The notes below the pieces were generated by a model. It made no database searches. It saw nothing but the letters and a program-made list of their open reading frames with translations, and was not told the origin of the DNA. A program made the position numbers and the translations under genes. Shown here piece by piece: positions 5,929 through 64,000 of a DNA stretch of 64,000 nucleotides. The DNA comes from Caenorhabditis remanei (taxonomy: Eukaryota > Nematoda > Chromadorea > Rhabditida > Rhabditidae): assembly GCF_010183535.1 (NCBI RefSeq), contig NC_071331.1:18910001-18974000 (forward strand), read 5' to 3'. Position 1 is the stretch's first letter. Every line of letters starts with the position of its first letter.

Positions 5929-6483
5929 TTTCAATTATCTTACCTCATTATTTAAATCTTTCGTCCTTCAATAAAAGTTTATAATTTTTCAAAAGCTTTT
6001 AATTTCATAAAATCATCGATGGTTTCGGAGGGTACATTTCCAAGTTTGCTTCTTTTTTAAAAATAAATCCGGGTTTCTAAAAATGTTGGATTGTGGATTT
6101 TGTTTCCAATTGTTATCAGGAGCATTTGTACCGACTATGAACAAAATTTGATCTCCATTATTAGGCATCTGAATTTTATTTGTAGCATTGGTTCTCTGCC
6201 ATTTTCTGATTTACCAATAGGTTACAATTTTCAGGAAACTCTTACAGAGAATCCAAATATATGGAATAGTAAGAAAAAGCGAAAGCATTGAGATTAGAAG
6301 TGACAGAAATGTGAGCAAATTGAATTGAAAAAGTTTGAACTATTTGTAGAAACGTTTTGAAACGGTAAGTCTTGACGCTTTTTGGAGGTTGTACACAGCG
6401 GAGAGCTATGATAAAAGTCAAGAGTTGATTATGAGATGTTTTGAAACAGTAACGTTTCAAAACTTTTATTAGCACGACACACA

Positions 6484-6600
6484 TCTTACAACCGCGCTCT
6501 TCCAAAACCAAAGTAAATTGTGGGAGAAATCGAGAGACTCAGAGAAAAATGGATATTTCTCAAGAGGATTTCGGTGGAGCGCAGTTGTAAGAGCTGTGCT
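6484..6600. repeat. Short inverted-repeat element, 'ACAACCGCGCTC' family
   Basis: TCTTACAACCGCGCTC at the left pairs with GAGCGCAGTTGTAAGA at the right, separated by about 90 bp that includes GAGAGACTCAGAGAAAA. Related copies lie at about 16,335-16,450 and 51,430-51,535, and right halves near 14,555, 35,130, 38,620 and 47,480. Non-coding, about 115 bp. Confidence 0.6.
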
Positions 6601-7179
6601 GAGCTACTAAATCATAATGAGGAGAGCCGCGCCCTTGAGTTTAAAGTCTAGAGTTTAAAGACGTTGGAAAACTATAGCATGAACTATTTGAAGCGGTAGA
6701 AATTATCAATGTATAAAAACATATATCACTGTTCCAAGACTTTCACATCATGATGCGGGTACCATGACCCATATTGTCATAGTGATTTTAAGTCGGTTTC
6801 AGTACTCAAAGCTAAATGTTCTGATACAGCCGTGTTTGATTAAATCTGGAAATTCAAGTTTCCTGTTTCACAATATTCAGAATTATTAGGCACTCTTTCT
6901 TGTTGAAGTGAACAATTTCAAAAATTCTAGTTTTAGGTAATCTCGAATTTTATATCTGAATTTTCCTGTTTCAATAATTTTTCATTACGAACACGACTAG
7001 TTGGGTAATCTTGATTTTTTGACTTCTTGACACATTGACTTTTCTGAAACTATAAACCCTGTTTCAGAAATTCTTTTTTTTTCGATTATGTAACAATTCA
7101 ACATTGCGGTTCTGTATTTCAGATAAAATTTCACTGTTTCACAATTTTTTTGAATTCTATTGTAATTGTCCGTAGTTGA

Positions 7180-7200: not shown

Positions 7201-9336
7201 CGTAAATTTCACTGTTTCATGATCTTTTTATGAGATGTTCAGAAAAACAACACATTGGTAGATTTAGAAATATAACATTTCACTAATTTCCCAACAATTG
7301 CTTATTTAAATCTTTCTCACTATGCGAAAAAGGCGCACTTCAAACAAACTGTTCTGATACCGGAAGTTATAAAAAACTCACGATTAAAAAAAAAGATTCC
7401 ACTAACAAAAAAGTTCATAAGGACTTTACAAAAACATTGAAACGGTACAAAATTATAACTTCCTATAAACATTTTCTGTTTCAATAATGTTGTTTTTTTT
7501 CTAAATAAAACTATGCAATCACTCTCTGAAGCATAGAAAGAACATTTGAAACGTGTATCCAAAAACATTGACTGTTTCACAGGCGACTAATAGTTTATGA
7601 GAACTGACCCTGGAGTTCTCACAATCAGCATAATTAATGATTTTCTCCTTTTAGAGAATGTCATGTAAAAAGTGGAAACGAAAATACTGAAAATAAAAGA
7701 AATTATTTCAGATAAAATTTTATTGTTTCACAATGGTTTTCAGATCTATCGTAATTGTTCGTAATTGATAGATATTGAGATATTCAATCAAAAACATGTT
7801 ACTTTTTCATATATTTTATTGTTTTATGAACTTTTTATGAGATTTTCAGAAAATACATAGTGGTAGACATTATCGCAGCATTTCAATCTTTAAAAATCAT
7901 TCCCACTACGCCAAACAGGTGCACTTCAAACAAACTATTCTGTTACCGAAAGTGAAAAATCGAAGCAGTGAATGTTTTAAAAACACCTGTTTTAATTAAT
8001 TTGTCAGAATCCACTAACGGCAGTTCCATTAAGAGAACGTGTTCAAAAGAACTTTACAAAAACTGTGAAACAGTACAAAACTATAACTTTCTATAAAAAT
8101 TTTCTGTTTCAAAAAAGTTGCTTATTTAAAAAAAGAAACTATGTAATCAATCCCCATAGAATTTAAAAAACTGGACAAACCATATTTGGAAAGAATGGGT
8201 TTTACGCCAAGAAGCATAACGACACACAACTTTTAAATGGGCTACAAACATTTGTACGTTCTAAAGGCGTATCGTGGTCAGTTATGATATTTTGCTATAA
8301 TTTCGGAAAAATGTGTCAGTTCACAAACCAAAAGTTTTCGACCCCTGAACACTCACCTGATTTTCAATAGCAGTGTGCTCAATCATCTTTTCAATCGTCA
8401 ATAAATTACAGCTTCCAGTGAACTGTCTAATCGATTTCACCAGATCCTTTTCATGTTTTTTCAACTGTTGTGGGTTCAATCCATAGATAATCATCTTAAA
8501 TCTATTGGTCGACTCGATTACATTCACAACAACATCTGCCTTCGAGCACAACTGCTGACCGGATATTGGCGAGTCACAAGCGGATACCTTGAAATAAATT
8601 ATTTGAATTTCGAAATACTTTTCAGGTAGAACTACTTACTCTAAACTCGAATTGGCAACGGAGGAAACTGCTCCGAAGTAAGTGGTCAATCCGAGATCCG
8701 AATCATAAACAAATCTAGGCACATTGTCATTCACATCCAGTACAGTAATCGAGACAAGTGCATAGTCGGTGTGAGTTCCAGCGGTTACGGTCACATTCAG
8801 GAGGTATCTGTAATTAAGAATGAAATGGGGAAGACGATAGGGTGATTGAAATTATATTACGGCACAATACTTTATGCGATAAACGCTGCATTCTATTTGT
8901 TTCTATCACTAATAATATCACTAATAAATTCTAGATTTTTCTGTTTTTCGTTCCCTGAAAATCGTGATTTTTGTCTGCTAGCGCCAACATAAATAAAATT
9001 AAGACGCTGGGAATCTGAAAATCGTCGCTTTGAAACTTGAAAGTTTCAAAACTTAGGTGAAATTTCTGTTTTAATGTTTCGATACCAAAAATCGTTGAGA
9101 GCTATATTTTTCTCGAATACCAGGTCTCGCGGGCAAAAACTAAGTATATATTCGGAATGAGCGTTTTCTCAGCTGTCCAATTATATAAGTCACGTCCCAT
9201 AGATCAAAACTGACTCCATGACCTTGGCTAGTAAATTTAGAAAATGTAAAATCATCACTCACTCATTCAACGATTAAAAATTTTCGTGAATTTTTAATAG
9301 ACCTTATTGAAACAGAACATTTAAACTTTCAAATTT

Positions 9337-9357
9337 GAAAATAAAAAAATGCGATAA
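9337..9357 (-). ncRNA. Predicted 21U-RNA (piRNA)
   Basis: The minus-strand core is at 9396-9403. TAAT (YRNT) puts the 5' T at 9357, 39 nt after the core end. Confidence 0.4.
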
Positions 9358-10530
9358 TTAATTGTAATTTTCAGTAAAGTCTCCCTTTTTATTTCTGAAA
9401 CAGTAAAAATAAAAACTCACCTCTCAACAGTCTCCCTATCCAACTCCATCTGCGTTCTCAGCTCACAATTTCCATCATTTCCAGCAGTGACTCCGAATGC
9501 TCCACGATAATTTCCAGATACAATATTACAAATGATAAATCTGGTATCTGTTGGTTTATTCATCACTGACAGTACTTGGACCAAATGGGGTGGACGGACA
9601 GCTTCAGATACAGAAGCACTGAAAAAGTTATAATTTTAATTGGAGTAAAAGTTTAAAACTCACGTATAATTTCTCAAACTGAACTGCAACTCTCCCTCAT
9701 TCGGTGTATTCAAGACAGGCGATGCGTCAGGAATCAAGTGAGATGATGTGGCAATCACGTTGATGAGTACTGTAGTTGTGGAGGAGAGTGGTGGCATTCC
9801 ACTGTCGGCTCCCTCGATTCGCAACTGAAATCAACCTTTTCCAGTCACGATAAAGACAGTAACCTACCGTAATCTTCTCCCCGGCGAATGCATCAATAGG
9901 CCTTGCCAAAGTGATCAATCCACTCTTAGCGTTCACATTGAAATGGGCTTCCAGACCACCTGCAGACAGGAGACGGTACCGGATACGGTTGTTTGGATCC
10001 TGAAAATTGGGAGAGATGATCAGAGATTTGACAATTGAGAGAAGATTTAATGATGAAACAGAAAAATATTTTGTAACAGTTTCGGAAATTGTATTATTGT
10101 TGTGAATACTGTCAGAGGTAGTCCTGGTCGCTTTTTACTCACAAAACAATCAGCACAACGATTACCTGATTTCTAGAGCTTCAATGGTTATTCTACTAAA
10201 AATATGAACAAAAAAGTGCTGTTTCTCCAGTTTCAGAAATATCAATGAAGTGTCAATCTGTCATTGGAAGCTCTGCAAGTTTTCGAGTTTCTCATTTTTT
10301 TGTGGAATGAGCTTTCAAAAAAAATAAGCGTTTTGTTTCAAATCTTACTTGACTTTTACACCAAATATCCCTGTTCCGGATGTTATATGAACGTGCATAA
10401 GGAATTTATAAGATAATAAAACTCCTGTCTAACTTCTTAAACAATTCAGGTAAAGATGGATAAAATGAAAACATAACTTTTTTTGCTGTTTCAGTCCGGT
10501 AATATTTTAACTTTACACTGATGGAAGTAG

Positions 10531-12480: not shown

Positions 12481-12687
12481 GAATCCCGTACATGTTTTAC
12501 TTGAGTTTCACCACAACACAAAAAACGGAAATATTATTTTTTTTTAATGAGGAGAAACTTAGAAACTTACATTTAATTCCTTTTTCAATATTTAAAATTA
12601 CGAATCACCGGGCCGAACTTTGGTAAAAACAACAAAATTATGCTGTTTCAAACAAAATTTGAAGTCAGGTTTCAGAAAAATTGGTAA

Positions 12688-12708
12688 TCGACAGTAGAGA
12701 CACACTTG
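12688..12708 (+). ncRNA. Predicted 21U-RNA (piRNA)
   Basis: The core is at 12643-12650. TAAT (YRNT) puts the 5' T 38 nt after the core end; a second YRNT lies at +35. Confidence 0.4.
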
Positions 12709-15700
12709 TTACATAATAAATTCTGCTGAGTTAACCTTCAAACCTAATTACTTCTACTGTCTCGAAAACGACATGTGAATTCATCTTTAGTTTCATAAAA
12801 ATATTCAATCGCTCCCAGTTGAATGTAAAATTCACAGTTCCAAAGTGTTTTCACCAAACTCACATCTCTATCCTGATCAAATGCATTGACTTGTCCCACA
12901 ATAGTCCCCGGAAGAGTGTCTTCCTTAACATCGAATTCATATGATCCACTTTCAAAGTTTGGAATCCAGTCGTTCTTATCAGCGACGTTAATTGTGATGC
13001 TAACGAAATGAGCGAGTTTTGGATCCACTTCCATTGTTTGGGTTTGGAGAAAAATAAATAAATAAAAAGTAAAAATAAGAAAATAAACCTCCGAAGTGGA
13101 AACTTGAATAGTGACAGTCGAATTGGCCTCTGCATCCAATGCTCTCAATAAATTAATAGATCCAGAATAAGAAGAAACAGAGAAAAGACTGGGATCTCCT
13201 TTAGGAGCTTTCGTGCCACTTGAGACTCATTTTTATCCATTTTTTACTGTGATTATATTTCAGAACAATTTGAAAAAAACGTATTGTTATCTTCCCGTTT
13301 TGACTGACAAACAATTTCTTCATAAAAATATTTTCTGTTTCAGTTGCTTCCCAATGTATTCGAAATAGTATGTGTATTCTTAATTCCTTTTCTGCGCTTT
13401 TTGCAATAAATCCAGGTTTCTAAAAAATGTTTGAAGTTTCTTCCAATTCCAGATTTTGTTGCCAATGGTTATCAAGAGCGCTTTCTATGAGCAAATGTTG
13501 AGCTCGGCATCTGAATTTACTTTGAGGTTGCTGTGGTTTCTGGCCATTTTCTGATTTTCCAATTGGTTACGATACATTTCTCTGTTTCAGGAACTCTTGA
13601 AAAGCAAATTTGTATTATTAGCTCAATACGTTCTGTTTCTTATTCTGAATGCAGTCTATACTCGAGTGATAATCAAAAAAAAAATGTTTCAGAATAAAAT
13701 TATAAGTTAATCAATTACGCATTAAAACCAATTGTATCGCAATCGGAACGCATTTTTAAGATAATTTTTTATATTTCAATTAATAAAATTATTCAAATAA
13801 ACTTCATACATTAATAAATAAATACACCGTTTCAATCAATATGTATACATATTATAAATCTTTTAAAGTTTAATAATAACATTAAATATTATGATTTAAA
13901 AAAAAAAATTGTCACTGAAACGGCGGTGGACAAATCACTGGCAAATTGGAGAGAGGATTGGGAGGAGAAGTTATAGAAATTTCAGAAAGAATTGAGCACC
14001 TATGTTTGGTTCACAAGGAGAGAAAATTGAGCGGAAAAATGCTAAAACGAAAGAAAAAATGGGAGAAGAAAAAGGGGGGGGGGGAACAAATGAGATTCTG
14101 TGGGATGAAAGAAAATGAGAAATAGAAAAAGGACAAAGTTACAGTATACTTTTGTGTTGATTCGGATGAGTACGCTGATGATAGTCGGGTGTTGGAATCA
14201 CGATTGCCTGTATACGTCTGAAAAAGAGAGAACTTATAGTTAGGTATGGTGATGTCATGAAACAGAGAATCCAAATATTTGGAGCAGTAACAGAAAGCGA
14301 AGATTAGAAGTGCCAGAAATGTGAGCGAATTGAATTGAAAAAAGGTTGAACTATTTGGAGAAACGCTTGAAACGGTAAGTTTTGGAAATTCAGAAGGCTG
14401 TGGAGAAGGCTGTGGAGAACTATGATAACTATGATAAAATTGAAGAGTAGATTTTGAGATGTTTTGAAAGAGTAATGTTTTCTATTAGCATTACAAACGT
14501 CTAACTCTAACGAAACGAAAGAAAATTGCGTGCATTTCTCAAAAAGATTTCGGTGGAGCGCAGTTGTAAGAGCTGTGCTGAGCTAATAAATCATAATAAG
14601 AGTAACCGGGTCCTTGAATTTGAAGTCTAATAGTCAAAAGACGTCAAAACATGAAAAGTGCTTTTTGAATCAGTAGAAGTTACCCAAGCATAAAATAAAT
14701 ATCCCTGTTGCAAGACTTTTAAATCATAATGAAGATGACATGACCCATATTATTATCGCGTTATTGTTTGATAGTTGTGAATAAGACTGTTAATTTAAAA
14801 TCAGATTCCCACTGAGCTCAACTTTTGAAGTCAAATCGTAATTTAAAAGAAAGAAACGTGGAAGTTGCAGATATCTGAATATTCAAGTTTGCTGTTTCAC
14901 AATATTCAAAAATTGAAGTTTTAATAAATTTCGAAATTCGTATCTGATTTTTTCCTGTTTTAATAACTTTTCATTATGAAGACAATTAGATGGCTAACCT
15001 TGATTTGATTAACAGTGTTGTTTCCAAATCAACTTATCTGACACTAAATAATTTCCCTGTTTCAGAAATCCAATTTTACTTTATTATGTAACAATTCCAC
15101 ATTGTCGTTCTGTTATCGATTGTTGTGTTGATAATTTATTGGTTTTTTACAGTAAAAACTATCGAATGAGATTTCATGTTGGGCTAATAGGTGTCTGATA
15201 AAACAGAAAAAAATTGAAAGCTCAACAATTAACAGAACTGTTCCTTGAAATTCACATTAACATTTCTCAATTTTCAGTAAATCAGTGTCTCATAGTCGGT
15301 GAGATCTTAAAATATTAAAGCGGCCATTTCTTTTATTAAACTAAAAGTTTACTAATTCAAAAAAAGCTGTTCCGCATGTACTGTCAAATAGTGTCGGAAA
15401 ATTTTAAAATGGAACAGTTGAAACAGGAAGTGTTGGGGTTTAATATATTTAACTATCCCAACAAAATCTGAATTCAATTACGGAACTAGATTACTTTGAG
15501 AAGAAAACAATAGCAATAAAATTTAAAATTTTCTGTTTCCCAGAGTTTTCATCAAAAACACTAACTGTACTAACTGCGTACTACTGTAAGGCGTTTCTGG
15601 AATTCGAAGTAGGAATGAGACCTAATTTACCCATCTGATTCGATAATTGTCTATCAATGTAATTTGATTTAAAAAAAAAGAAAACATGAAACAGTAAAAT

Positions 15701-16257: not shown

Positions 16258-16850
16258 ATATTTTTCACTGTAGAGAATCACCTTCACATTTTTGTGAAAC
16301 AGTAAAATTTTGAAAAACTTATTAGCACATCACGCTTCTTCAAACCGCGCTCTACCGAAACCGAAGAAATTGTGTGCAAAATTGAGAGACTCAGAGAAAA
16401 AGAGACATTTTTCAAGAGGATTTCGGTGGAGCGCAGTTGTAAGAACTGTGGCGAGTTAATTGCTTTAGAATAAATTTTCATCCAGCTTGAAAAACGCGCG
16501 TTTTTCGTTTAAATGGACTGAAAAAGCTGAAAACAAGGCGAGTTAAAATCAGACACCAATTTGTTACAACAAACAACTTTTTAAAAAATTAGAACATTTT
16601 CACAGATTCGCGAAACAGCAGAATTTTAATAAATTTAACTTTAATTCAACTTGAAAAACACGCTAATAATGTATCAGAACAGCCGATTTCGAAGTAAGTT
16701 CTGACAGTTTGAAGTTCGGCGAGAGACACAGAGAAGCTAGACATTCTCGTTTCTCTGCGCCCTCTCACTCTCTTCTCCTGAACTTTGAATAATCATAACT
16801 ACACTCAAACCTTCTCGTTTTTAAAACACTTTTTTTCTCCCTACACTCAC

Positions 16851-17344
16851 CTAAAATCTCCTTCGTAAGCCGTACTCTGTGCAGGCCTATATCCATAAGT
16901 TCTATAACTCTGATTTCCTCCTCCTCCACCCCCTCCTCCATTCATCTGTGGTCCCCCAGGTCCTCCGAATCCAGGACCTCCAAACTGTGGCCCTCCACCA
17001 CCCATTCTCTGATGTGCTGGCACTCCAATCGATCCACTCTTCATTGTCAAATCCTCATCAGAAATCAACATATTCACATTTTGTGTCTCATAATCATACT
17101 CTGTTCGTGGATCCATTCCCATTGTTGGATGATAGATTGGACCCAACTTCTGAGGATATGAGTGGGAGAAGTTGGATGCATTCCGTTGCGCTGTCTTGTA
17201 TCGATTCCAGAAGACACAAATGGCACAGATTCCAATTATAGCTCCGAGAGCAACGGTGACAGCGAGGATGATCAAAAGAATGTTGGATGTCTTCCAGTTG
17301 GTTGACAGAATCCCTCCATTCGACATATTTCCTTCCTCTCCGGC
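16851..17344 (-). CDS. Transmembrane and Gly-rich tail exon of the second cadherin copy
   Basis: This 494-bp exon is open and bounded by TGTAACAG-type acceptor and GTGAGT donor, the same length as 51935-52428. It encodes AGEEGNMSNGG, a hydrophobic helix ([20 protein letters not shown]), a basic stop-transfer segment (WNRYKTAQR) and a Gly-rich tail ending YEGDF. Only a few residues differ from the intact copy (for example M for L in the juxtamembrane segment). Its preservation contrasts with the nonsense codon farther upstream in the same copy; recent duplication or gene conversion could explain this. Confidence 0.6.
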
Positions 17345-18399
17345 CTGTAACAAATTGATTTCTGAAACTAAATGGAAAAACAATACTCACATCCTCTGAA
17401 ATTCTTTCCAGTCTGAACCATGGCTGCACTTTTCCAGCAATCAATTGAACATTCGACGTCTCGAACAACTTTCGAATGTCCTGTTTCTTGCAAATCTTCT
17501 TTGTTGTGGGGTTCACTGCGTACCAGTAGATGTCCGTTCGGATCTGGAAACCGATTTTTTTGATTGTCGGAAAATTTGTAACTTGTTTTCAAAAATATCG
17601 ACTGTTTTACAGGTGACTAAAAGTTTATGAGAGCTGGCCCTGGAGTTCTCAAAATGATTTACGATTTCTTTCTTTTAGAGAATGTCATGGAAAAATTGGA
17701 AGCGAAACAGTAGGATATTTCAGATAAAATTTCACTGTTTCACAAATTTTTTGAATTCTATTGTAATTGTCCGTAGTTGATAGTTCCTCTATTTAGATAA
17801 TTCCATAAATTTCACTGTTTCGTGGTCTCTTTATGAGAGTTTCAGAAAAAAACACACCGGTAGACTTGGAAATATAATGTTTCACTAATTTCCCAGCAAT
17901 TGCTTATTTAATTCTTTCTCACTATGCGAAAAAGGCACACTTCAAACAAACTGTTCTGGTACCGGAAGTTATAAAAAACTCACGATTAAAAAAAAAGATT
18001 CCACTAACAAAAAAAGTTCATAAGGACTTTACAAAAACATTGAAACGGTACAAAATTATAACTTCCTATAAACATTTTCTGTTTCAAAAAAGTTGCTTTT
18101 TTTTCTGAATAAAACTATGCAATCACTCCCGGATTCATAAAAAGAACATTTGAAATATGTATCCAAAAATATCGATTGTTTCACAGGCGACTAAAAGTTT
18201 ATGAGAACTGACCCTGGAGTTCTCACAATCAGCATAGTTAATGATTTTCTCCTTTTAGTGAATGTCATGTAAAAAACTGGAAACGAAAATACTGAAAATA
18301 AAAGAAATTACTTCTGATAAAATTTATTGATTGAAGGACCAAAGGCCGCTTATACATATCAAGGTAAAAAAAATATATACGAAGTAAAAATACGAAACA

Positions 18400-18780
18400 T
18401 TAAAAGTTAAAATTGTTGAGAATCAGAAAATTGTCAAAGTTATATGATGCAATATGGGATTTGAAAACAATAGATGAGGGACGTTGGGGGAAAAAGTGAG
18501 AAGGGAGGGCATTCCAACAACGCAAAGTTCTGTTAATGAGAAATTTGGAACCTATTTTAGAGGAATTCGACAGGAGAGAGCGTATATGGAAATTATGCCG
18601 ACGTAAGTTAGATACATTAGAAAATTTTACAAAAGAAATATTCGGAATAATTATTTCTTTGGAGACAAGGAGTTTATGACGCACTCTCTGACTCGTTCGA
18701 TCACCCATGTTCACCCGAAAAAAGTCGACCATCTCCGATTTGCCAATTCTTTTGATCGAAGATAGTATCAAGTGTTCTCC
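18400..18780 (-). pseudogene. C-terminal reverse transcriptase fragment
   Basis: An open minus-strand frame reads SSIKRIGKSEMVDFFRVN, then RTLRCWNALPSHFFPQRPSS and VFKSHIASYNFDNFL, the typical C-terminal end of CR1/Jockey-like RT proteins. It is continuous in sense with the RT at 21,783-22,574 but is separated from it by the palindromic insertions. Confidence 0.7.
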
Positions 18781-20628
18781 GCAAATGGGGGTACTTTTTG
18801 GCCGGGTCCGTCACCTAGGTACCTAGGAAAACCAAAAAATCTATATTTTTCGAAAATTTTTCCTGAAGTAGTTAGCTATGAAATCTTGACGGGAAATTAA
18901 TGTAGACACTATTTTAAGCATTTTTTGTGTTCAAAAGAAAATTTCAGCTCAACACCTTCATAGTGAAATATTTCAAAATGTGTGGAATTTTCGGGTTTTT
19001 TTCATGAAATTGTTCTTATCTCGGCAGTGATCCGAGAAGACAGCGTTTTTTATTTGAAATTCGTAATCTACATAAAATTTGGTATTGGGTGCATGCTGTC
19101 CCTACTTGTAACTCTTTCTCCAAAGAACGGTTTTTTAGGGAAGTATGAGAAAAACTGCCATTTCAATTTTTGAGGCATTCCGGTAAATCATTTTGGATGT
19201 TTCAAAATGATGGTTTCTTTAAGTTTTTCATTCAATCATGACATTTTTCAGCAATTTCAACACAATATTCGATCATACCACAAAAAAATTTCAAAAAATT
19301 GAATTTTTGATTTTTTTGAAATTTTTTCTTGAATTGAATCATTCGAACTGAAATATTAAGGATATCATTATAAAATCAAAAGAATATAGTCAGAACATAA
19401 TTTGGGTTCATGAAACAACTAGTTTCGATTATCGGGTCATCTGCAACTTACGTTTTCGAGATGAAATTTAGAGAAATGTTCCACTTGGGAAGTTGATGAA
19501 ATGGTACATCACACTTTCAACGTTATTTGACAGAGGATTGCAAGGAATGTAACTGGAAAAGTAAGAAAACTGCAAAAATTGATTGATTTAGCAAAATTTT
19601 CAAAAAGAAAATTGAAAAAAATAAGACTCATACGTATGCAATGGACTGATCTTTTTGTGGAAGTCAGAAAAGTGTTTTTCAATTTTCTTTTTGAAAATTT
19701 TGCTAAATCAATCAATTTTTGCAGTTTTCTTACTTTTCCAGTTACATTCCTTGCAATCCTCTGTCAAATAACGTTGAAAGTGTGATGTACCATTTCATCA
19801 ACTTCCCAAGTGGAACATTTCTCTAAATTTCATCTCGAAAACGTAAGTTGCAGATGACCCGATAATCGAAACTAGTTGTTTCATGAACCCAAATTATGTT
19901 CTGACTATATTCTTTTGATTTTATAATGATATCCTTAATATTTCAGTTCGAATGATTCAATTCAGGAAAAAATTTCAAAAAAATCAAAAATTCAATTTTT
20001 TGAAATTTTTTTGTGGTATGATCGAATATTGTGTTGAAATTGCTGAAAAATGTCATGATTGAATGAAAAACTTAAAAAAACCATCATTTTGAAACATCCA
20101 AAATGATTTACCGGAATGCCTCAAAAATTGAAATGGCAGTTTTTCTCATACTTCCCTAAAAAACCGTTCTTTGGAGAAAGAGTTACAAGTAGGGACAGCA
20201 TGCACCCAATACCAAATTTTATGTAGATTACGAATTTCGAATAAAAAACGCTGTCTTCTCGGATCACTGCCGAGATAAAAACAATTTCATGAAAAAAACC
20301 CGAAAATTCCACACATTTTGAAATATTTCACTATGAAGGTGTTGAGCTGAAATTTTCTTTTAAACACAAAAAATGCTTAAAATAGTGTCTACATTAATTT
20401 CCCGTCAAGATTTCATAGCTAACTACTTCAGGAAAAATTTTCGAAAAATATAGATTTTTTGGTTTTCCTAGGTACCTAGGTGACGGACCCGGCCAAAAAG
20501 TACCCCCATTTGCGGAGAACACTTGATACTATCTTCGATCAAAAGAATTGGCAAATCGGAGATGGTCGACTTTTTTCGGGTGAACATGGTCTGTTGATCG
20601 ATGCTCGATCGTCTCTGAGAGTGCGTCT
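18676..20628. mobile_element. Large palindrome (about 0.95-kb arms) that includes host RT sequence
   Basis: The left arm (18,676-19,620) and right arm (19,676-20,628) are near-perfect inverted copies, separated by about 55 bp (ACTCATACGTATGCAATGG in the loop). The inner part (TTTTTGGCCGGGTCCGTCAC inward) has no coding capacity. The outer roughly 105 bp of each arm is reverse transcriptase coding sequence (CGCACTCTC through the AAAAAGTCGACCATCTCC block), present in correct orientation on the left and inverted on the right. Confidence 0.8.
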
Positions 20629-20632
20629 TATA

Positions 20633-21780
20633 CAGTAGCGAGCATAAGTGAGTATACCTCCATACTTTCATATGTATCTCAGCTGAAACAAGTCCGTTTT
20701 GCATAAATTTTTTTTTCAAAGATAGCTGATGTATCCAGTAAAATTGACATAAGTTTTTTGTTTGAGGTGATCAGCTGATTTTTAAGATTATCGATTTTTC
20801 CTGATCTTGATTTCAAAATCCAAAAAAAAAACTTTTTATTTTTGAACTGGACCCTACGATTTTTTAAATCAAAAATGTTGAGTAATGTTCATAAAAACAA
20901 AATATAATGTTAGAATGCTTCTGTGAATCTTCATCATCGTGCTACAGCTCCAGAAGTCCAAAGTGGTATGCTTGGCTAAATCGCCATAACTCATTGAAAA
21001 ATGATTCAAATTGGTTGAAAATTGCGGGAAAAGATGCGTAATATGTTTATCAACAATCTTATATTCAAAAATAATAATTTTGAGAACTTTTTTTTTCGAA
21101 TTTTTTTCACTCGAAAAATTTTGGTTTCCAACTTTTGCCCAATTTTTCATGTTTTTTGATTATAAAACAGTAACAATTTGCGAATTTTAGTTGAATTTTA
21201 CATGAAACATCGAAATTAGATTTTCATTAATTCTATTACAGCTATTTTATAATCAAAAAACAGGAAAAATTGGGCAAAAGTTGGAAACCAAAATTTTTCG
21301 AGTGAAAAAAAATTCGAAAAAATGTTTTCTCAAAATTATTATTTTCAAATATAAGATTGTTGATAAAGATATCACGCATCTTTTCCCGCAATTTTCAACC
21401 AATTTGAACCATTTTTCAATGAGTTATGACGATTTAGCCAAGCATACCACTTTGGACTTCTGGAGCTGTAGCACGATGATCAAGATTCACAAAAGCATTC
21501 TAACATCATATTTTGTTTTTATGAACATTACTCAACATTTTTGATTTAAAAAATCATAGGGTCCAGTTCAAAAATAAAAAGTTTTTTTTCGGATTTTCAA
21601 ATCAAGATCAGGAAAAATCGATAATCAAAAAAAATCAGCTGATCACATCAAACAAAAAACTAATGTCAATTTTACTGGATACTTCAGCTATCTTTGAAAA
21701 ACAAGTTTATGCAAAACGGACTTGTTTCATCTGAGATACATATGAAAGTATGGAGGTATACTCACTTATGCTCGCTACTG
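20633..21780. mobile_element. 1.15-kb palindromic element, CAGTAGCGA family, copy A
   Basis: The termini are CAGTAGCGAGCATAAGTGAG and its complement, flanked by TA (20631-20632 and 21781-21782). Nearly the whole element is an inverted repeat, with the loop at about 21,160-21,240. It disrupts the RT frame after DLSFM. Same family as 27869-29019 but clearly diverged. No transposase is encoded, so it should be a non-autonomous Tc1/mariner-type element. Confidence 0.8.
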
Positions 21781-21782
21781 TA

Positions 21783-22574: not shown

Positions 22575-23087
22575 CTTCTGATAAAATTTTACTGTTTCAC
22601 AATGGTTTTCAGATCTATCGTAATTGTTCGTAATTGATAATTCCTCTATTGAGATATTCAATCAAAAACATGTTACTTTTTCATATATTTTACTGTTTCA
22701 TGATCTTTTTATGAGATTTTCAGAAAAAAACACAGCGGTACTGTTTCACAAATTACCCAGAAATTGCTTATTTAAACAATTCTCACTATGCCGAACAGAT
22801 GCAATAAACTATCATGCTGCCGGAAGTTATAAAAAACTCGAAGACAAAAATAATCATTCCACCGAAAAAAAATATTCATAAGAATTTCATAAAAACATTG
22901 AAACGGTACAAAAATATAACTTTATATAAAAAATTTCTGTTTCAAAAAATTTGTTTATTTTTCTAAATAAAACTATGCAATCACTACCTGAAGTTTTCTA
23001 GTTCTGATAAACTTGTTATTGAAAAGAGCAGTCTATTCGAACCACTACACCACGAAAAGGACAAGATATTCATCTGGTTCTAATTTA

Positions 23088-31059: not shown

Positions 31060-31085
31060 ACCAATTTTCACTTATGCGGCCATAT

Positions 31086-32105: not shown

Positions 32106-32143
32106 ATCTCCTTATCAAGAAGATCTCCTAGAGATCTCCTTAT

Positions 32144-51313: not shown

Positions 51314-54300
51314 CTGAAATTAAGGAACTATTTGAAAATGGGAAAAGGAAATCAATTTTTTAATCAGTTTCATAGCTTTATGAAACAGGAAAGTTTTGAA
51401 GAACTTATTAGCGCGGCACGTATCTTACAACCGCGCTCTACCGAAACCGAAGAAAATCGTGTGCGAAATTGAGAGACTCAGAGAAAATGAGACATTTTTC
51501 AAGGGCATTTCGGTGGAGCGCAGTTGTAAGAACTGCGTCCACCGAGTAGCCATATAATTTATGTCCAGCTTGAAAAGCGCCCATGTTATACTTCAAATTT
51601 TGCTGAAAAAAGATGAAAACAAGGTTTTAAATCAGAAACCACTTTGTTACAACAAACAACTTTTTCAAGAATTAGAAAATTTTCACAGTTTTTCGAAACA
51701 GGAAAGTTTTGAAAATTTTCATAAATTTTACTTTAATTCAACTTGAAAACCTCGTTTTTAGCTTCAAAACGCGATGAAAGTGGATCAGAACAGTCGAATG
51801 TTTGGCGAGAGACACAGAGAAGCTAGACATTCTCGTTTCTCTGCGCCCTCTCACTCTCTCCTCCTGAACTTTGAATAATCATAACTACACTCAAACCTTC
51901 TCGTTTTTTCATTGATTTTTCTCCCTACACTCACCTAAAATCTCCTTCGTAAGCCGTACTCTGTGCAGGCCTATATCCATATGTTCTATAACTCTGATTT
52001 CCTCCTCCTCCACCCCCTCCTCCATTCATCTGTGGTCCCCCAGGTCCTCCGAATCCAGGACCTCCAAATTGTGGCCCCCCACCACCCATTCTCTGATGTG
52101 CTGGCACTCCAATCGATCCACTCTTCATTGTCAAATCCTCATCAGAAATCAACATATTCACATTTTGTGTCTCATAATCATACTCTGTTCGTGGATCCAT
52201 TCCCATTGTTGGATGATAGATTGGACCCAACTTCTGAGGGTATGAGTGGGAAAAGTTGGATGCATTCCGTTGCGCCGTCTTGTATCGATTCCAGAAGACA
52301 CAAATGGCACAGATTCCAATTATAGCTCCGAGAGCAACGGTGACAGCAAGTATGATCAAAAGAATGTTGGATGTCTTCCAGTTGGTTGACAGAATCCCTC
52401 CATTCGACAGATTTCCTTCTTCGCCGGCCTGTAACAAATCGATTTCTTAAACTAAATGGAAAAAACAATACTCACATCCTCTGAAATTCTTTCCAGTCTG
52501 AACCATGGCTGCACTTTTCCAGCAATCAATTGAACATTCGACGTCTCGAATAACTTTCGAATGTCTTGTTTCTTGCAAATCTTCTTTGTTGTGGGGTTCA
52601 CTGCGTACCAGTAGATGTCCGTTCGGATCTGGAAGTTTTTTGATTTCCAGAAAATTTGAAACATTTTTTCAAAAATATCAATTGCTTCATAGGAAACTTA
52701 AAGTTTATAAGATTTGACCCTGGAGTTCCCTGTAGTGTAGGATTTCCTCCTTTTAGAGCTATGTGAAAACTGAAAGTAAACAAAATATTTCAGATAAAAA
52801 TTCACTGTTTCACAAATTCTTTGAGATCTATAGTAGTTGTTTGTAATTGATAGTTTCGTTAATTGTAAGAGATATCCAATCAAAAACATGTTAGTTAACC
52901 AAATATTTTACTGTTTCATCATATTTTTTAAAGATTCTTAGAAAGAAAACACAACGGTAAATTGATGAATATAATGTTTTCCTAAATTTCCAAAAATCCC
53001 TTCTTTTAAGATGAAATAGTCATTAACGTATCGTTTAATACTTGAAAAATCATTCCCACTACGCCAAACAGGTGCACTTCAAACAAACTATTCTGTTACC
53101 GAAAGTTGTGAAAAAATCGAAGCAGTGAATGTTTCAAAAACACCTGTTTTAATTAATTTGTCAACGGCAGTTCCATTAACAGAACGTGTTCAAAAGAACT
53201 TTACAAAAACTGTGAAACAGTACAAAACTATAACTTTCTATAAACAAATTTCTGTTTCAAAAAAGTTGTTTATTTTTCTAAATAAAACTATGCAATCACT
53301 CCCGGAATCATACAAAGAACATTTGAAATATGCATCCAAAAATATTAACTTTCTCGAAACCAGTTTATAAAAAAATGTTATAAAAAACTCACGATCAAAA
53401 AAAAAGATTCCACTTACAAAACAAGTTCATAAGAACTTTCCAAGACATTGAAACGGTAAAAAATTATAACTTTCTATAAACATTTTCTGTTTCAAAAATT
53501 TTGTTTTTTTTTCTAAATAAAACTATGGAATCACTCTCTGAAGCATAGAAAGAACATTTGAAACGTGAATCCGAAAATTATCGACAGTTTCATAAGGGAC
53601 GAATATTTTAAGAGATATGACCCTGGAGTTTTCAAAATAGTTTACGATTTCCTCCTTTAAAAAAAATTCATGTAAAAAATTGGAACCGGGACAAAAAATT
53701 TCAGATAAAATTTTACTGTTTCACAATTGTTTTCAAATCTACCGTAATTGTTCGTAATTGATAAATTGGTAATCGAGATATCAAATCAAAAAATATGTTA
53801 TAACTTTCTATAAATATGTTCTGTTTCAAAAATGTTGTTTATTTTTCTTAATAAAGCCTTGCAATCACTCTTGGAAACACCTACACTGAAAAACAATATC
53901 TGAAAAATTTGGTTTTTAAGCCGAGACACATAACTTTTAAGTGAGCTACAAGCATTTGAACATTTTGAATGATGCACCATTTCACCTCCCAAACCAAAAC
54001 TTTTCGACCCCTGAACACTCACCTGATTTTCAATAGCAGTGTGCTCAATCATCTTCTCAATTGTCAATAAATTACAGCTTCCAGTGAATTGCCTAATCGA
54101 TTTCACCAGATCTTTCTCATGTTTCTTCAACTGTTGTGGGTTTAATCCATAGATAATCATTTTGAATCTATTGGTCGACCCGATTACATTCACAACAACA
54201 TCTGCCTTCGAGCACAACTGCTGACCGGATATTGGCGAGTCACAAGCGGATACCTTGAAATAAATTATTTGAATTTTGAAATACTATTCAGGTAGAATTA

Positions 54301-57300
54301 CTTACTCTAAACTCGAAAAATTGAAGACGATTTCTGCTTAAAATAGTTGACATGCTCTGTTTCGTACTGATTTCACCGAATGGAGAAATTGAAAAGTATT
54401 TGGAATGGGCGGAGAGTGGATCCAATGCATAGTTCACGAGACTACTGTTTCCGAGATCTGCGTCTTCAGCCTAAAATTTTTATTAGAAGTTACTGCCATT
54501 CAATGAATTACTATCACAAAAAGTTTTCTAAAAACTAATATTATTATTGAAACAGTAACACTTACCTTCACTGTTAGCACTCTTGTGAACGCATTGGCCA
54601 CCGAGGAAACTGCTCCGAAGTAAGTGGTCAATCCGAGATCCGAATCATAAACGAATCTAGGCACATTGTCATTCACATCCAGTACAGTAATCGAGACAAG
54701 CGCATAGTCGGTTTGAGTTCCAGCGGTTACGGTCACATTTAGGAGGTATCTGTAAAAAGGATCGAATTGAAGGGGGGAAAACGATAGGGTGTATGCATTT
54801 ATTTTGAAAACACAATATTTTATTCGTAACGTTTTTTTGAAGCAATACTAACTAAGGAAGGTCATGGAGTCAGCTTGGAGTTGTAGGACGTGACATATAT
54901 TATTGGAAAGCTGAGAAAACGCTGATTCCAGACGTATATTCAGTTTTTGTTCTTGAGGTTTGGTGTTCGAGAAAAAGAAAAGAAGGTCAACGTTCGGAAA
55001 AATGAAAAATTATCGGTTTTCTGTTTTCATTCCCTGAAAATCGTCATTTTGGTCTGCTAGTTCCAATTTTGTAGTTTGTAGTGAGCTAGCAGACCAAATG
55101 GGTGTGCTGGTTCGACTACAAACTACTGTCTTTGAGCTAGCAGACCAATATAGGTTTTGCGTTGCGTTTTGAAATAAAACTGGATATGCTGAAAAACGAT
55201 GCCTAGATAAATTAAGACGCTGGGAATCTGAAAATTTGAAAATTTAGGAAAAACTTCTGTTTTACAGTTTCGACACCAAAAATCGTTGAGAATTTTATTT
55301 TTCTCGAATACCAGGTTTCGCGGGCAAAAACTAAAGATATTTTTGGAATCAACCTTTTTTCAGCTTTCCAATTATATAAGTCACGTCCCATAGATCAAAA
55401 CTGACTCCATGACCTTGGCTAGTAAATTTAGAAAATGTAAAATCATCACTCATTCAACGATTAAAAAATGTCGTGAATTTTTAATAGACCTTTTTGAAAC
55501 AGAACATTTAAATTTTCAAATTTGAAAATAAAACAATGCGATAATTAATTGTAATATTCGGTAAAGTCTCTCTTTTCTTTTTTGAAACAGTAAAATAAAA
55601 AAACTCACCTCTCAACAGTCTCCCTATCCAACTCCATCTGCGTTCTCAGCTCACAATTTCCATCATTTCCAGCAGTGACTCCGAATGCTCCACGATAGTT
55701 TCCAGATACAATATTACAGATGATAAATCTGGTATCCGTTGGTTTATTCATCACTGACAGTACTTGAACCAAGTGAGGTGGACGGACAGCTTCAGATACA
55801 GATGCTCTGAAAAAATTATAATTTTAATTGGAGTAATAGTTTTTTTAAACTCACGTATAATTTCTCAAACTGAACTGCAATTCTCCCTCGTTCGGTGTAT
55901 TCGAGACAGGCGAGGCGTCAGGAATCAAGTGAGATGACGTGGCAACCACGTTGATGAGTACTGTAGTTGTGGAGGAGAGTGGTGGCATTCCACTGTCGGC
56001 TCCCTCGATTCGCAGCTGAAATTCGGAGCTCATTTCTATTTTTCCAGTCAATACAGTAACCTACCGTAATCTTCTCCCCGGCGAATGCATCAATAGGCCT
56101 TGCCAAAGTGATCAATCCACTCTCAGCATTCACATTGAAATGGGCTTCCAGACCACCTGCAGACAGGAGACGGTACCGGATACGGTTGTTTGGATCCTGA
56201 ATATGGGAGTGATGAAATATTGAAAAATAATTTGAAAATTGAGAAAAGATTTAGTGATGAAACAGAAAAATTTTTAGTTGCTGTTTCGGTAATTGTATTA
56301 TTGTTGTGAATACTGTCAGAGGAAGTCCTGATTGCCAGTACAGCATTTACCTGATTTCTGGATATTCAATGGTTATTCTACTCAAAAATGAACAAAAAAG
56401 TACTGTCTCTCCAGTTTAAGAAATATCAATGAAGGTTCGATCTGTTATTAGTAGCTTCATCTGTTTTGTTATTTTTGTGAAATGAAGTTTCCTGTTTCAA
56501 TTAAAAAATGATTGTTTTGTTTCAAAATTTTCTTGAAGTTTTATGGGAAACATCTCTGTTTCAGATGTTTAATGAATGGCATAAGGAATTTTATACATAA
56601 TAACACTAACTTCGGACATTTTGTAAATAATTCAATTCAGCTAGTTAATTAACTTGATTTTTTCAGCTTTTCGGTTTCAGAAATGTTCGGTTTCAAGTTT
56701 AGATAAGACGAAAACCACAAACTTTTTGGAATTAGTGAACTATGTCTAAAGGAAATACTAATTAATTAATTGGCTTTACGATTTTAAGTATAAAAAAATT
56801 GATAATTAAAACGTACTGTTTCATAACTTTTAAAAACAAATTCTTGTGAGTTTGTTTCACTTGAACGAACTTTTAAAATGAAGAAACTTAGAAACTTACA
56901 TTTAGCTTTTTTTAGACATTAAAATAATTAATTTTACTGTTTGGTAAAATAATGTTATTAACTGAGCTAGAATTTTTTGAATTATTGACTTTTCTGCTTT
57001 TCATATTACCCATTCACCGGTGGCTGACCTTCAAACAAAATTTGAAATAGTTTACAGAAAAGTTTTTAATGTGCAAAAAATACACTGTACAAGTAAGGTT
57101 TTAACAAAATAAATCAAGATGTGTTAATCCTCAAACCTAACTACTCCTACTGTTTCAACATTCATATGAATTTTTTTTTCATAAAAATATTATTCACAGT
57201 TTGAATGTTTTCAGTTTTGAAACCTCACAAACCAATGTGTTTCCCCAAACTCACATCTCCATCCTGATTATTTTTTATTTAATTTTTACACTGATGTAAC

Positions 57301-60300
57301 TAGTAAATTCTTCGTTTCAATTAGTTTGATTTTTTCAGCTTCTCAGGTTCAGGTTTAAGAAATTAATAACAAAAATGTTCTGTTTCATTATTTTTCTAAA
57401 GTAAATACTTGTGAGTTCGTTTCACTAGAATGTAATACGTTTTTTTAATTGAAAACTTAGAAACTTTGATTTAGTTCTTTTTTTAATATTAAAATTACGA
57501 ATTTTACTTTCAATAACGTTAGTCAAATATAACTTTTTTGGATTATTAAGTTAATCAACAAAATAATGCTGTTTCAAAAAAAATTTGAAGTTAGGTTTCA
57601 GAAAAACTAGTAATCCAAAGAGGAGACATCCCTTTAACATGCTTATTACAAAAATTATGAATGGTATGAGCAATTTTATAGATAATAAAACTCTTGCCAA
57701 ATTTCTGACGTTTTCTAAACAATTCAGTTAATTAATTAGTTTGATTTTTTCAGCTTCTCAGTTTCAGGTTTAAGAAATTAATTACAAAAATTTTCTGTTT
57801 CATAACTTTTTTAAAACAAATTCTTGTAAGTTCGCTTTGCTTTAGCTACCACAAAAAGCAAAACTATTATTTTTTTAATGAGGAGAAACTTAGATACTTA
57901 CATTCAATTTCTTTTTCAATATTTAAAATTCCGAGTTTTACTGTTTCAATAATGTTATTAAGTGAGATAGAATTATTTGAATTATTGGATAACGCGAAAA
58001 TACAATCAATTTTCACTATACTACCCATTTTCCGATGGCTCCGTGCTCGCGCAAAGTTCGACCCGGGGTGTGGTAGAGAGGCGCCGTAAATAGAAATTCC
58101 GCAACAAGAAACACACCGCATCCCAGGACCGAACCTTGAGAGCCACTGACGAAATGGGTAACACAACAAAATTATGCGGTTTCAAACAAAATTTAAAAAT
58201 CAATGATCAGAAAAATTATTAATCGGCAGAACAAACAGCCATGGTTTTTACGAAATAAATTCTGCTGAGTGAACACCTAAAACCTAATTGCTTCTCTACT
58301 GTTTCAACATTCATGTGAATTCATCTTTAGTTCCATACAAATATTGACTCGATCACATCTAAAATTCACAGTTCCAATGCGTTTCCCCCAAACTCACATC
58401 TCTATCCTGATCAAATGCATTAACTTGTCCCACAATAGTTCCCGGAAGAGTGTCTTCCTTAACATCGAATTCATATGATCCACTTTCAAAGTTTGGAATC
58501 CAATCGTTCTTATCAGCGACGTTAATTGTAATGCTAACGAAATGAGCGAGTTTTGGATCCACTTCCATTGTTTGGGCCTGGACAAAAATAAATAAATAAA
58601 ATGAAAAAATAAGAAAATAAACCTCCGAAGTGGAAACTTGAATAGTGGCAGTCGAGTTGGCTTCTGCATCCAATGCTCTCAATAAATTAATAGATCCAGA
58701 ATAAGAAGATACAGAGAAAAGACTGGGATCTCCCTTATGAAGAACGTATGTAATCGTTCCAGACAACCCATCTGGATACGTGGCATGGGCTTTCGTAATC
58801 TCTACTTGTGACTCATTTTCATCGATTTGTACTGTGATTTGAGATGGTTTGAAGACTGGAGCAAGTCGTTTTTGAGCTGGTTGAGGAGGCGGAGCTTGAG
58901 TGACTGGTGGAGCCATTTTTGTTGTTGGGTGGGATGGAAGTTCCTGGAACAAAGAGTATGATGAGAGGGAATGAGAGAGAAGAAGTAGATCAAGCACAAG
59001 GCAGAAAATGGGAATGATGCAAATGCGCTCTATTGGAGTGTATTTTTTGTGATAAGAGATAAGAGAGCACAGAGAAACAAGAGTTTCTGGCTTCTCTGCG
59101 TCTCTTACTAACCTTACAGTTTGAGAAGAAAGTTGAGCTAAGTTTTGTAAAGAAAAAAGTTCAAAATTATGAGAAATATTATGTTTCAATCATTACAAAA
59201 ATTGCCGGATCTGTTTGAATACTTATTAACAAGCGCAACGTCTCGAGCAAATTATTAATTCACAGAAAGTATGATTACCATCAAAATGAGCCAAAAGATG
59301 AGCCAAAAACCATCCAAAATGTGGGATTTCCACGAATTTATGATCTTTCAAAAATAGAGGGTGAGAGATGAGAGATCGCAGAGAAACAAGAGTGTCTAGC
59401 TTCTCTGCGTCTCTAACCTTACTTGAAAAACTTGTTGTAAATAGGTTTTCTGAACATTTTGAAAATGAATTGAGATGGTTTCAGTTATTTTGAAAAGTGA
59501 AAAAAAAACTTTTTCTTAAACAAAATATTCCGTTTCAACCGTTACGAAAATTACCGAATCTGTTTGAACACTAATAGACAAGCCATAATCTCCAACAAGT
59601 TATTGATTTACAGAAACGTTGATTACTTTCAAAATGAACCAAAAATCAGCTCAAAATGAGGGATTTCAACAAATTTATGACCTTTCAAAACTAGAGGGTG
59701 AAAGATAAGAGAGCGCAGAGAAACGAGAGTGTCTGGCTTCTCTGCGTCTCTTATCAAATATGAAACTACAGGTTTTCTGAATAGTATGAGAAGAAAGTTG
59801 GCATGGTTTAAATTATTCTGAAAAATGAAAAAAAAAACTGTTTTTTCTTAAACAAAATTTTCTGTTTCAACCGTTATGAAAATTGCTGGATCCGCTTGAA
59901 CACTAATTGGCAAGAGCAAAGTGTCTAATTAATTTTTAATTGAAAAAAAAACGTTGATAACCTTCAAAGTGGCTCAAAACGTGGGATCTCAGCGAATTTT
60001 TGATCTTTCAAGAATAGAGGGTGAGAGATGAGAGAGCGCAGAGAAACAAGACTGTCTGGCTTCTCTGCATCTCTCTTTCTCCAACTATCAATAGAGCGCA
60101 TTTGCATTCCCTTATTTCTCAAAGACCCATTTCATGACCACCAATCTAGCAACGTCCAAGCAAATTCCAAACAAATAAATAAATGAAAAAAAAGAAATAT
60201 TGTTAGTTAAAGTGCTCGAGGGGCGTAGAAGCATGCACTACCTGACTGGTGCCGAATTCCTCTTGCCACGAATTCTCGATCTCTGCATTCTCTGCATTCT

Positions 60301-63300: not shown

Positions 63301-64000
63301 GGTGCAGTCATTTTTTGAATAACTTTTTTCGTTGTAGAGATTTTCGAAAAGTTATTTTCTGTCCGTCTTATATTAACATAAGTAAAATTTACTGTTTCAT
63401 TCTTATATAAACAAATAATTCTTGTTAACATGTTTGCTGAAATTGGCTCTATTTCGAACTATGTATTTTAAGTTTGCATAGTATCGACTCTGAGTTATCA
63501 CTATTATCAGTTCAGGAACACTTGCCAGAAGGTGTTAAAGACGCATCTAATTTGTTTGAAATGGTCTCAAAGCGTAAAACGTGATTTGCAGTACTTTTCT
63601 GACCTGCCAAGCTCAAAAACACGGCATTTGATCTTTTTGAGACCATTTCGCGAAACCTCCAATAAACTAGATGCACCTTCAACACCCTCGGCACGAGTTC
63701 GCAAACCGATAATACCAGCGATATGGAGCCAAGAAAAAAGCTCGTGGTGTCACATAAAATTTTAGAAAAAAAATCTGTTTCATAATTTCACTAACCTTAA
63801 AATAAAAACTACCGTTCTATTAGTCCTAGTATTTTCAAAACAACTCACATTCAACTGATAGGTCGATGGATTTGGTGGATCCGCATCAATTTTTGGTACA
63901 TTCAAATACACATATCCTCTCTGGTCAACTGCGAAGATAGTTGCTCCGAGACCAGTCAGAATGTATTGATACGTGGCAGGTGGCATTCCAGGTTGCTGAA
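51145..64000 (-). CDS. Large single-pass cadherin, protocadherin-15/Cad99C-like; 5' end outside window
   Basis: Exons in gene order: 63849-64000, 62920-63138, 62600-62870, 62301-62457, 61903-62205, 61668-61851, 60853-61065, 60242-60625, 58623-58943, 58398-58577, 56065-56196, 55855-56015, 55609-55806, 54566-54749, 54306-54470, 54023-54253, 52476-52628, 51935-52428, 51257-51313 and 51145-51182. Phases agree at every junction and there are no internal stops. The product has about eight EC repeats, three with the calcium-binding DVNDN linker motif ([27 protein letters not shown]) and one degenerate ([10 protein letters not shown]). A P/T/E-rich linker, a membrane-adjacent domain, one TM helix and a Gly-rich tail follow. 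Expected at the plasma membrane as an adhesion or microvillus/tip-link-type receptor. The PCDH15 relation rests on domain order and the juxtamembrane domain; I do not assign a worm gene name. The C-terminus is unresolved. Confidence 0.85.
51430..51540. repeat. ACAACCGCGCTC inverted-repeat element
   Basis: TCTTACAACCGCGCTCTACC at the left mirrors GGTGGAGCGCAGTTGTAAGA at the right. Same family as 6484-6600 and about 16,335-16,450; it sits between tail exons in the same place in both cadherin copies. Confidence 0.6.
51935..52428 (-). CDS. Cadherin exon: transmembrane helix and cytoplasmic tail
   Basis: 494 bp. Short acidic juxtamembrane start ([11 protein letters not shown]), TM helix of about 26 residues ([20 protein letters not shown]), basic WNRYKTAQR, then [29 protein letters not shown] and a Gly-rich run ([20 protein letters not shown]) with tyrosines near the end ([15 protein letters not shown]). 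No catenin-binding motif is seen, so this is not a classical cadherin tail. Confidence 0.9.
52476..54253 (-). CDS. Cadherin exons: membrane-adjacent (MAD-like) domain
   Basis: Exon 54023-54253 continues past the last EC strand ([20 protein letters not shown]) into [17 protein letters not shown] and the IEKMIEH segment. Exon 52476-52628 gives [20 protein letters not shown] and IRKLFE. The pattern of a hydrophobic strand, a helix, a strand, D-x-YAxxPxTxxx and a final helix resembles the ferredoxin-like membrane-adjacent domain of PCDH15. The intron between the two exons (1.4 kb) holds seven piRNA cores. Confidence 0.65.
54023..58943 (-). CDS. Cadherin exons: membrane-proximal EC repeats
   Basis: Exons run from 58943 to 54023. 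Visible motifs in order: [12 protein letters not shown] (EC start), [10 protein letters not shown] (degenerate linker), [104 protein letters not shown] and [10 protein letters not shown]. This is four EC repeats. Every exon of this block is duplicated in at least one of the downstream copies, except 54306-54470, which is only fragmentary in the third. Confidence 0.85.
54490..54510 (-). ncRNA. Predicted 21U-RNA (piRNA)
   Basis: The minus-strand core is at 54548-54555. TAGT (YRNT) puts the 5' T at 54510, 38 nt after the core end. Orthologous in position to 24311-24331 with a changed 21-mer. Confidence 0.5.
54850..55425. mobile_element. Inverted-repeat element in cadherin intron
   Basis: AAGGTCATGGAGTCAG with GGACGTGAC and TTGGAAAGCTGA at the left is mirrored by TCAGCTTTCCAA, GTCACGTCCC and CTGACTCCATGACCTT at the right. 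The centre holds a nested GGTCTGCTAG/CTAGCAGACC hairpin. The other copies keep only parts (about 9,120-9,235 and 24,720-25,115). Confidence 0.6.
57986..58006 (+). ncRNA. Predicted 21U-RNA (piRNA)
   Basis: The core is at 57941-57948. TATT (YRNT) gives a 5' T at +38. Antisense to the cadherin intron. Confidence 0.5.
58022..58160. mobile_element. Shorter TACCCATTCGCC-family MITE
   Basis: Ends are TACCCATTTTCCGATGGCTC and AGCCACTGACGAAATGGGTA. It lies in the intron between 58398 and 56196 and is shorter inside than the copies at 26547 and 31086. Confidence 0.6.
58345..58365 (+). ncRNA. Predicted 21U-RNA (piRNA)
   Basis: The core is at 58299-58306. TATT (YRNT) gives a 5' T at +39. Confidence 0.45.
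59040..60080. repeat. About 330-bp tandem repeats with a GCAGAGAA/TTCTCTGCG hairpin
   Basis: Four degenerate units lie in the intron 58944-60241. Each ends in a hairpin such as AGCGCAGAGAAACGAGAGTG followed by TCTGGCTTCTCTGCGTCTCT (about 59057-59107, 59361-59415, 59701-59753 and 60021-60075). The rest of the unit includes CCGTTTCAACCGTTACGAAA and ATTTATGACCTTTCAAAA. Single hairpins of the same kind lie at about 16,725-16,775, 51,805-51,860 and 62,540-62,578. Confidence 0.7.
60242..61065 (-). CDS. Cadherin exons: Pro/Thr/Glu-rich linker
   Basis: Exons 60853-61065 (71 aa) and 60242-60625 (128 aa) are both phase 0. Composition is P, T, S and E rich with many PET/PEP/TVP motifs and EETEEEETE. 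No cadherin fold is visible. It is probably an extended, O-glycosylated spacer that separates two groups of EC repeats. Such a linker is unusual inside an EC array. Confidence 0.75.
61165..61185 (+). ncRNA. Predicted 21U-RNA (piRNA)
   Basis: The core is at 61120-61127. CGTT (YRNT) gives a 5' T at +38, in the intron between exons 61668-61851 and 60853-61065. Confidence 0.45.
61668..64000 (-). CDS. Cadherin exons: N-proximal EC repeats in the window
   Basis: Six exons. 63849-64000 ([15 protein letters not shown]) and 62920-63138 (DVNDNSPQF, then [20 protein letters not shown]) end one EC repeat and open the next. 62600-62870 carries the conserved [10 protein letters not shown], and 62301-62457 starts another repeat ([14 protein letters not shown]). 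61903-62205 has [14 protein letters not shown] and DVNDNSPIF. 61668-61851 has [19 protein letters not shown], which completes a repeat. The DxD, LDRE and DVNDN calcium ligands are visible, so these are calcium-dependent repeats. Confidence 0.85.
63438..63458 (+). ncRNA. Predicted 21U-RNA (piRNA)
   Basis: The core is at 63392-63399. TGCT (YRNT) gives a 5' T at +39, in the intron between exons 63849-64000 and 62920-63138. Confidence 0.45.

Follow-up and report, generated by a model that had tools for sequence, protein, structure and literature searches.

A predicted type I 21U-RNA cluster overlapping a duplicated cadherin locus on chromosome IV of Caenorhabditis remanei

Why does one octamer, CTGTTTCA, recur so often in a single stretch of a nematode chromosome? 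The stretch analysed here over its whole length of 64 kb (the window) is chromosome IV:18,910,001-18,974,000 of C. remanei PX506 (chromosome IV, 25,790,997 bases) and lies inside the right arm of that chromosome, which begins at 17.1 Mb in Table 1 of PMC10461856. A preliminary description had counted about 104 octamers, with none in positions 1-6,000 and only a few expected, and had read them as the promoter cores of a chromosome IV-type cluster of type I 21U-RNA (piRNA) genes in the introns of a cadherin locus. According to a review (PMC6468775), profiling of small RNAs has been done in C. remanei, which expresses 21U-RNAs, two to three times more than C. elegans. We estimate, with a probability of roughly 0.93, that the window is part of a C-type, type I 21U-RNA cluster holding 50-60 distinct autonomous genes (104 in all). 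Directly observed in support are the promoter anatomy, its spacing, the clustering, the genomic place and a slower divergence upstream of the 21U start. The kind, which produces guide RNAs directed at foreign DNA in the germ line, is already known, in C. remanei too; new are the coordinates and the predicted starts. C-type clusters are described in PMC6436959, the main text of which does not name C. remanei, and a literature search mostly covering papers outside subscription found no C. remanei piRNA cluster on PX506 coordinates. A dense stretch of this type is now placed on the chromosome-level assembly of the species.

6442-63841, both strands: part of a predicted type I 21U-RNA (piRNA) cluster, 104 cores, continuing to the right of the window

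An exact scan of the window found 104 CTGTTTCA sites (67 on the + strand and 37 on the - strand), as counted before; the first is at 6,442, with zero starting earlier, and the final one at 63,775-63,782. This octamer ranks second among the 8-mers of the window, behind poly-A/T. The expectation of only a few copies also held, since 100 dinucleotide shuffles of the window gave a mean of 4.27 (sd 1.73) and a maximum of 9. The whole assembly contains 19,000 sites (9,483 + and 9,517 -) in 130.47 Mb (130,466,896 bases), and 6,781 sites (3,454 + and 3,327 -) of the reversed word used as a control. Set against shuffled and genome background, as had been proposed, the count is thus 104 versus 4.27, and the density is 11.2 times the genome mean. 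The contig 1 control was restricted to the + strand; among the 100 sites listed there, the 81 on the + strand extend to 2.99 Mb and the 19 on the - strand end at 0.51 Mb. The + strand density of the window is ∼39 times that of this control (first 2.99 Mb, among the sites listed).

Between 6,442 and 63,782, with a duplicated block described below excluded, we counted 18.4 cores per 10 kb. Twenty 10-kb samples of chromosome IV contained 116 cores in total, 50 of them in one sample, whereas the other 19 had 0 to 9 cores each (mean of 3.5 per 10 kb). An equal density elsewhere, which would have spoken against the preliminary description, was not found in these 19 samples (18.4 versus 3.5 per 10 kb on chromosome IV). 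The exceptional sample (L019, C4:23,700,001-23,710,000) is a repeat-rich tract with 50 CTGTTTCA sites (37 + and 13 -) and no start-site peak. It is a warning that octamer counting alone can mislead.

L019 shows that octamer-rich repeats without promoter anatomy exist, and the octamer of the window could likewise be a frequent word of an inert local repeat family, its number being due to DNA duplication. The window does contain many paralogous segments and one exact 8.9-kb duplication, found by blastn of the window against itself.

27494-36354, + strand: first copy of an 8,861 bp block, 100% self-match
39839-48699, + strand: second copy of the 8,861 bp block, identical to 27494-36354

This exact duplication may have arisen in tandem very recently, or else be an artefact of the assembly. 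The DNA between both copies consists of near-identical pieces of the block, and 36,354-48,699 repeats other window DNA at 99.7-100% and contains 21 of the 104 cores. Non-redundant counts omit these and retain 83 cores. Among the 83, there are 62 cores with distinct flanks (ungapped comparison, >70% alike collapsed) and 51 paralogue families by gapped alignment, a count still far above chance.

To a repeat word, we can oppose the position of the start sites. In C. elegans, the 8-nt core is followed by an A/T-rich spacer of ∼35 to 42 nt, and the G of the core is most often at -44 (PMC3597512), which places the core start at -46. The YRNT position to be tested was fixed beforehand from this spacing. 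In the 62 distinct-flank cores, a YRNT has its T at +45 in 16 cases and at +46 in 19 (4.5 expected each), that is, 35/62 where 9 are expected (p 1.6e-12). With one core per family, the T is at +45 in 13/51 and at +46 in 15/51 (3.7 expected each), giving 28/51 versus 7.4 expected (p 5e-10). The 66 cores of the 19 other chromosome IV stretches have the same peak (17 at +45 and 20 at +46), whereas L019 has none at these two positions (3 and 2 of 49 cores). As the peak persists across 51 families and is shared by cores elsewhere on chromosome IV but not by L019, we regard the repeat-word explanation as highly improbable. An origin from a satellite or simple repeat was also considered and is excluded by the 51 families with a start-site peak.

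A YRNT with its T anywhere at 42-49 accompanies 83% of the 104 window cores and 83% of the 66 others, compared with 41% of 49 cores in L019; the chance level would be ∼45% (eight positions, background rate of 0.072). It is absent from 18 of the 104 cores; once the duplicated block is excluded, 11 of 83 cores lack it. Offset 42 is likewise raised (T in 16/62 and 13/51), indicating that the starts are not sharply confined to two positions. We assigned a predicted 21U to 86 of the 104 cores, with the chosen T at +45 or +46 in 59. These predictions are directly comparable with small-RNA data, and examples based on the sequence are as follows.

7059-7125, + strand: predicted unit, core 7059-7066, predicted 21U 7105-7125, T at +46
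8008-8073, - strand: predicted unit, core 8066-8073, predicted 21U 8008-8028, T at +45
9337-9403, - strand: predicted unit, core 9396-9403, predicted 21U 9337-9357, T at +46
12643-12708, + strand: predicted unit, core 12643-12650, predicted 21U 12688-12708, T at +45
15057-15123, + strand: predicted unit, core 15057-15064, predicted 21U 15103-15123, T at +46
22592-22658, + strand: predicted unit, core 22592-22599, predicted 21U 22638-22658, T at +46
25893-25959, - strand: predicted unit, core 25952-25959, predicted 21U 25893-25913, T at +46
26878-26944, + strand: predicted unit, core 26878-26885, predicted 21U 26924-26944, T at +46
31355-31421, + strand: predicted unit, core 31355-31362, predicted 21U 31401-31421, T at +46
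32682-32748, - strand: predicted unit, core 32741-32748, predicted 21U 32682-32702, T at +46
52805-52871, + strand: predicted unit, core 52805-52812, predicted 21U 52851-52871, T at +46
54490-54555, - strand: predicted unit, core 54548-54555, predicted 21U 54490-54510, T at +45
57380-57446, + strand: predicted unit, core 57380-57387, predicted 21U 57426-57446, T at +46
63392-63458, + strand: predicted unit, core 63392-63399, predicted 21U 63438-63458, T at +46

The flanks and spacer around the window cores are AT-rich (base profile of 62 cores). When scored with a flank matrix trained on the 66 other chromosome IV cores, the core itself excluded, 55 of the 104 cores in the window exceeded the 95th percentile obtained from 5,000 random positions of the window, as did just 9 of 49 in L019; the matrix is weak, because only 25 of the 66 training cores pass this threshold when left out. 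Past the predicted 21U, the GC content drops modestly, being 0.350 over the 20 nt that follow the T and 0.285 over the subsequent 20 nt (54 aligned units, p 0.0014), and A/T-rich motifs after the 21U have been reported in C. briggsae (PMC9683057). The core, the AT-rich flanks and a YRNT at the C. elegans distance, a combination that L019 lacks, thus support the type I 21U-RNA reading of the preliminary description.

Some variant cores behave in the same way. CGGTTTCA and CCGTTTCA (14 each, duplicated block excluded, paralogues not collapsed) have 9 and 8 starts at +45/+46, with 2 expected each, which indicates that exact-octamer counts miss units. In the window scan, CTTTTTCA and CAGTTTCA have no T peak. 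ATGTTTCA, the female-type core of C. elegans, has no clear peak at +45/+46 (3/15 versus 2.2 expected) and has a YRNT at 42-49 in 14/15.

The organization resembles that of C. elegans type I clusters in its CTGTTTCA core, AT-rich spacer and start ∼46 nt from the core start, and in its units lying on both strands, within and between genes, on chromosome IV. A possible difference is that, in C. remanei, the start peak is also seen with cores whose second base is G or C. The type I clusters reported for C. briggsae (chromosomes I and IV; PMC9683057) have the same motif, YR initiator and AT-rich post-21U stretch. Factors, transcription, processing and function would be as in C. elegans and C. briggsae, from which they are carried over. 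Each unit would be a Ruby-type promoter, made of an AT-rich flank, the CTGTTTCA core and an AT-rich spacer, that by analogy recruits USTC (PRDE-1, SNPC-4, TOFU-4/5) and RNA polymerase II. The YR of YRNT, ∼43 nt from the start of the core, would serve the polymerase as initiation site, and the short capped precursor would be trimmed to a 21-nt RNA beginning with T and loaded on PRG-1. The genome has 67 Piwi-domain matches, among which the PRG-1 gene was not singled out. The locus would then be a major piRNA source.

How far does the cluster extend, and what is its relation to the cadherin locus? To the left, the 10 kb outside the window contain a single core, without a YRNT at 42-49, and together with the core-free first 6.4 kb this defines a sharp left edge. 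Two F-box-associated (FBA_2) domain genes (828-1715 and 4724-5560) are located in this core-free left end. To the right, two 10-kb stretches contain 17 and 21 cores, with YRNT commonest at 46 and 47, and no right edge was found within 20 kb beyond the window. The host gene was recognized from the following exons.

58389-58895, - strand: cadherin-domain exon of the host gene (Pfam Cadherin, 2.2e-11)
12855-13202, 31768-32076 and 44113-44421, - strand: further copies of the cadherin exon (tblastn), with a fragment at 27007-27087
51934-52628, - strand: last two host exons, C-terminal part (tblastn with C. japonica protein P0006)
16850-17543, - strand: second copy of the C-terminal exons (tblastn with C. 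japonica protein P0006)

The C-terminal tail of the host is conserved in C. japonica, a genome search with the C-terminal exons gave no match beyond 16850-17543 and 51934-52628, and no named C. elegans gene was matched by the host cadherin. Outside the duplicated block, 69 of the 83 units sit in the cadherin span (8.3-60.85 kb). Three of the 104 cores, two of them mutual copies, fall in exons, with 8.6 expected by length (17 coding intervals beyond 6 kb), a weak avoidance. The proposal of a cluster in cadherin introns thus stands in part: the cluster overlaps the locus, but runs for at least 20 kb to the right of the window. Since the right-flank cores have the same density, the cluster overlaps the cadherin locus and exceeds it.

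With most window units (69/83) within the cadherin span, a P-type organization could be considered, as in Pristionchus (PMC6436959), where units also lie inside introns; the piRNAs would then be intronic products of a germline-active host gene. Such units should be confined to introns and dispersed over autosomes. Here, the signal passes the gene boundary and runs on for 20 kb at the same density, the chromosome IV samples are patchy and the contig 1 control (+ strand, first 2.99 Mb) is low; location inside genes is also found for 45% of C. elegans piRNAs (PMC6436959). Unlike the Pristionchus loci, the C. remanei units are dense, clustered and extend outside the gene, and we give the P-type organization very little credence. 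The samples and the left edge instead show the dense subclusters, with poor regions between them, on chromosome IV, that characterize the C-type. In such a C-type cluster, the duplicated cadherin gene is very probably a passive host of most units in the window.

In the cadherin span, duplicated block excluded, 45 units are antisense and 24 sense to the cadherin gene. The ratio is 36:12 for distinct flanks (p 0.0007) and 27:10 for family representatives (p 0.008), whereas sense and antisense are about equal among the genic units of Pristionchus (PMC6436959). The same strand prevails outside the gene within the window (11:3), and the right flank has opposite counts (13 + and 25 -). As the right flank lacks the same strand excess, we take the antisense excess as a local bias.

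The paralogous copies allow the divergence of promoter and product to be compared within one genome. We calculated the mean substitution per pair and site in 29 paralogue families, with one alignment per family; the sample is a single locus and the families are partly non-independent. Divergence is 0.160 at -90 to -60, 0.12-0.13 at -60 to -20 and 0.086 at -20 to 0. The core has a value of 0.076 and the spacer one of 0.11-0.13, compared with 0.213 for the 21U part and 0.18-0.21 past it; the core value is understated, because sites were picked for an intact core. The 21U exceeds the spacer by 0.091 (p 0.0016). Within the 15 families whose cores are all intact, however, 21U and flank do not differ significantly (p 0.21). 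Only the upstream part is slower, and the 21U diverges like the DNA after it. A faster divergence of the 21U than of all its surroundings appeared only in a first pairwise BLAST and was dropped (0.213 versus 0.206 at 67-87). The slower upstream divergence agrees with published work on nematodes, which reports little selection on piRNA sequences and a maintained biogenesis (PMC9683057).

These values also bear on whether the cluster is genuine but largely silent, its promoters being remnants in chromatin now closed to transcription. For C. elegans Ruby motifs, detectable 21U-RNAs are reported for 74% in regulated but <2% in active chromatin (PMC6436959), so that the motif alone is no proof of output. 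However, when paralogues are compared, the promoter has diverged less than the 21U. Moreover, 8 of 12 C. elegans cadherins have narrow, nervous-system expression (PMC11844738), and such narrowly expressed genes, to which the host might belong, are the sort that we would expect in regulated chromatin. A silent cluster is therefore improbable, if somewhat less so than the repeat-word and P-type explanations. We tentatively propose, as a possibility that we do not favour over others, that serial duplications of the host gene multiply piRNA genes, with the promoter kept by selection while the 21-nt product drifts; the antisense strand bias may belong to the same process. If true, the expansion of a gene family would be a generator of new piRNA sequences.

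An Rfam scan of the window gave nothing at gathering score, and a tRNA scan (bacterial code setting) gave none. The core-free stretch 18087-22591 contains an inserted palindrome.

18705-20589, no strand assigned: inserted palindromic repeat, 915 nt arms 99% alike, 55 nt loop

Its family is dispersed: one arm alone has at least 84 matches, spread over contigs 1 to 6, with 40 of 180 candidates scored. Near it lies a reverse transcriptase fragment (RVT_1, 1.5e-07) at 21762-22361 on the - strand. Another palindrome, with 360 nt arms and a 138 nt loop, is present in three copies, at 28016-28873, 36874-37731 and 40361-41218, and the stretch around it is ∼73% like 20630-21782.
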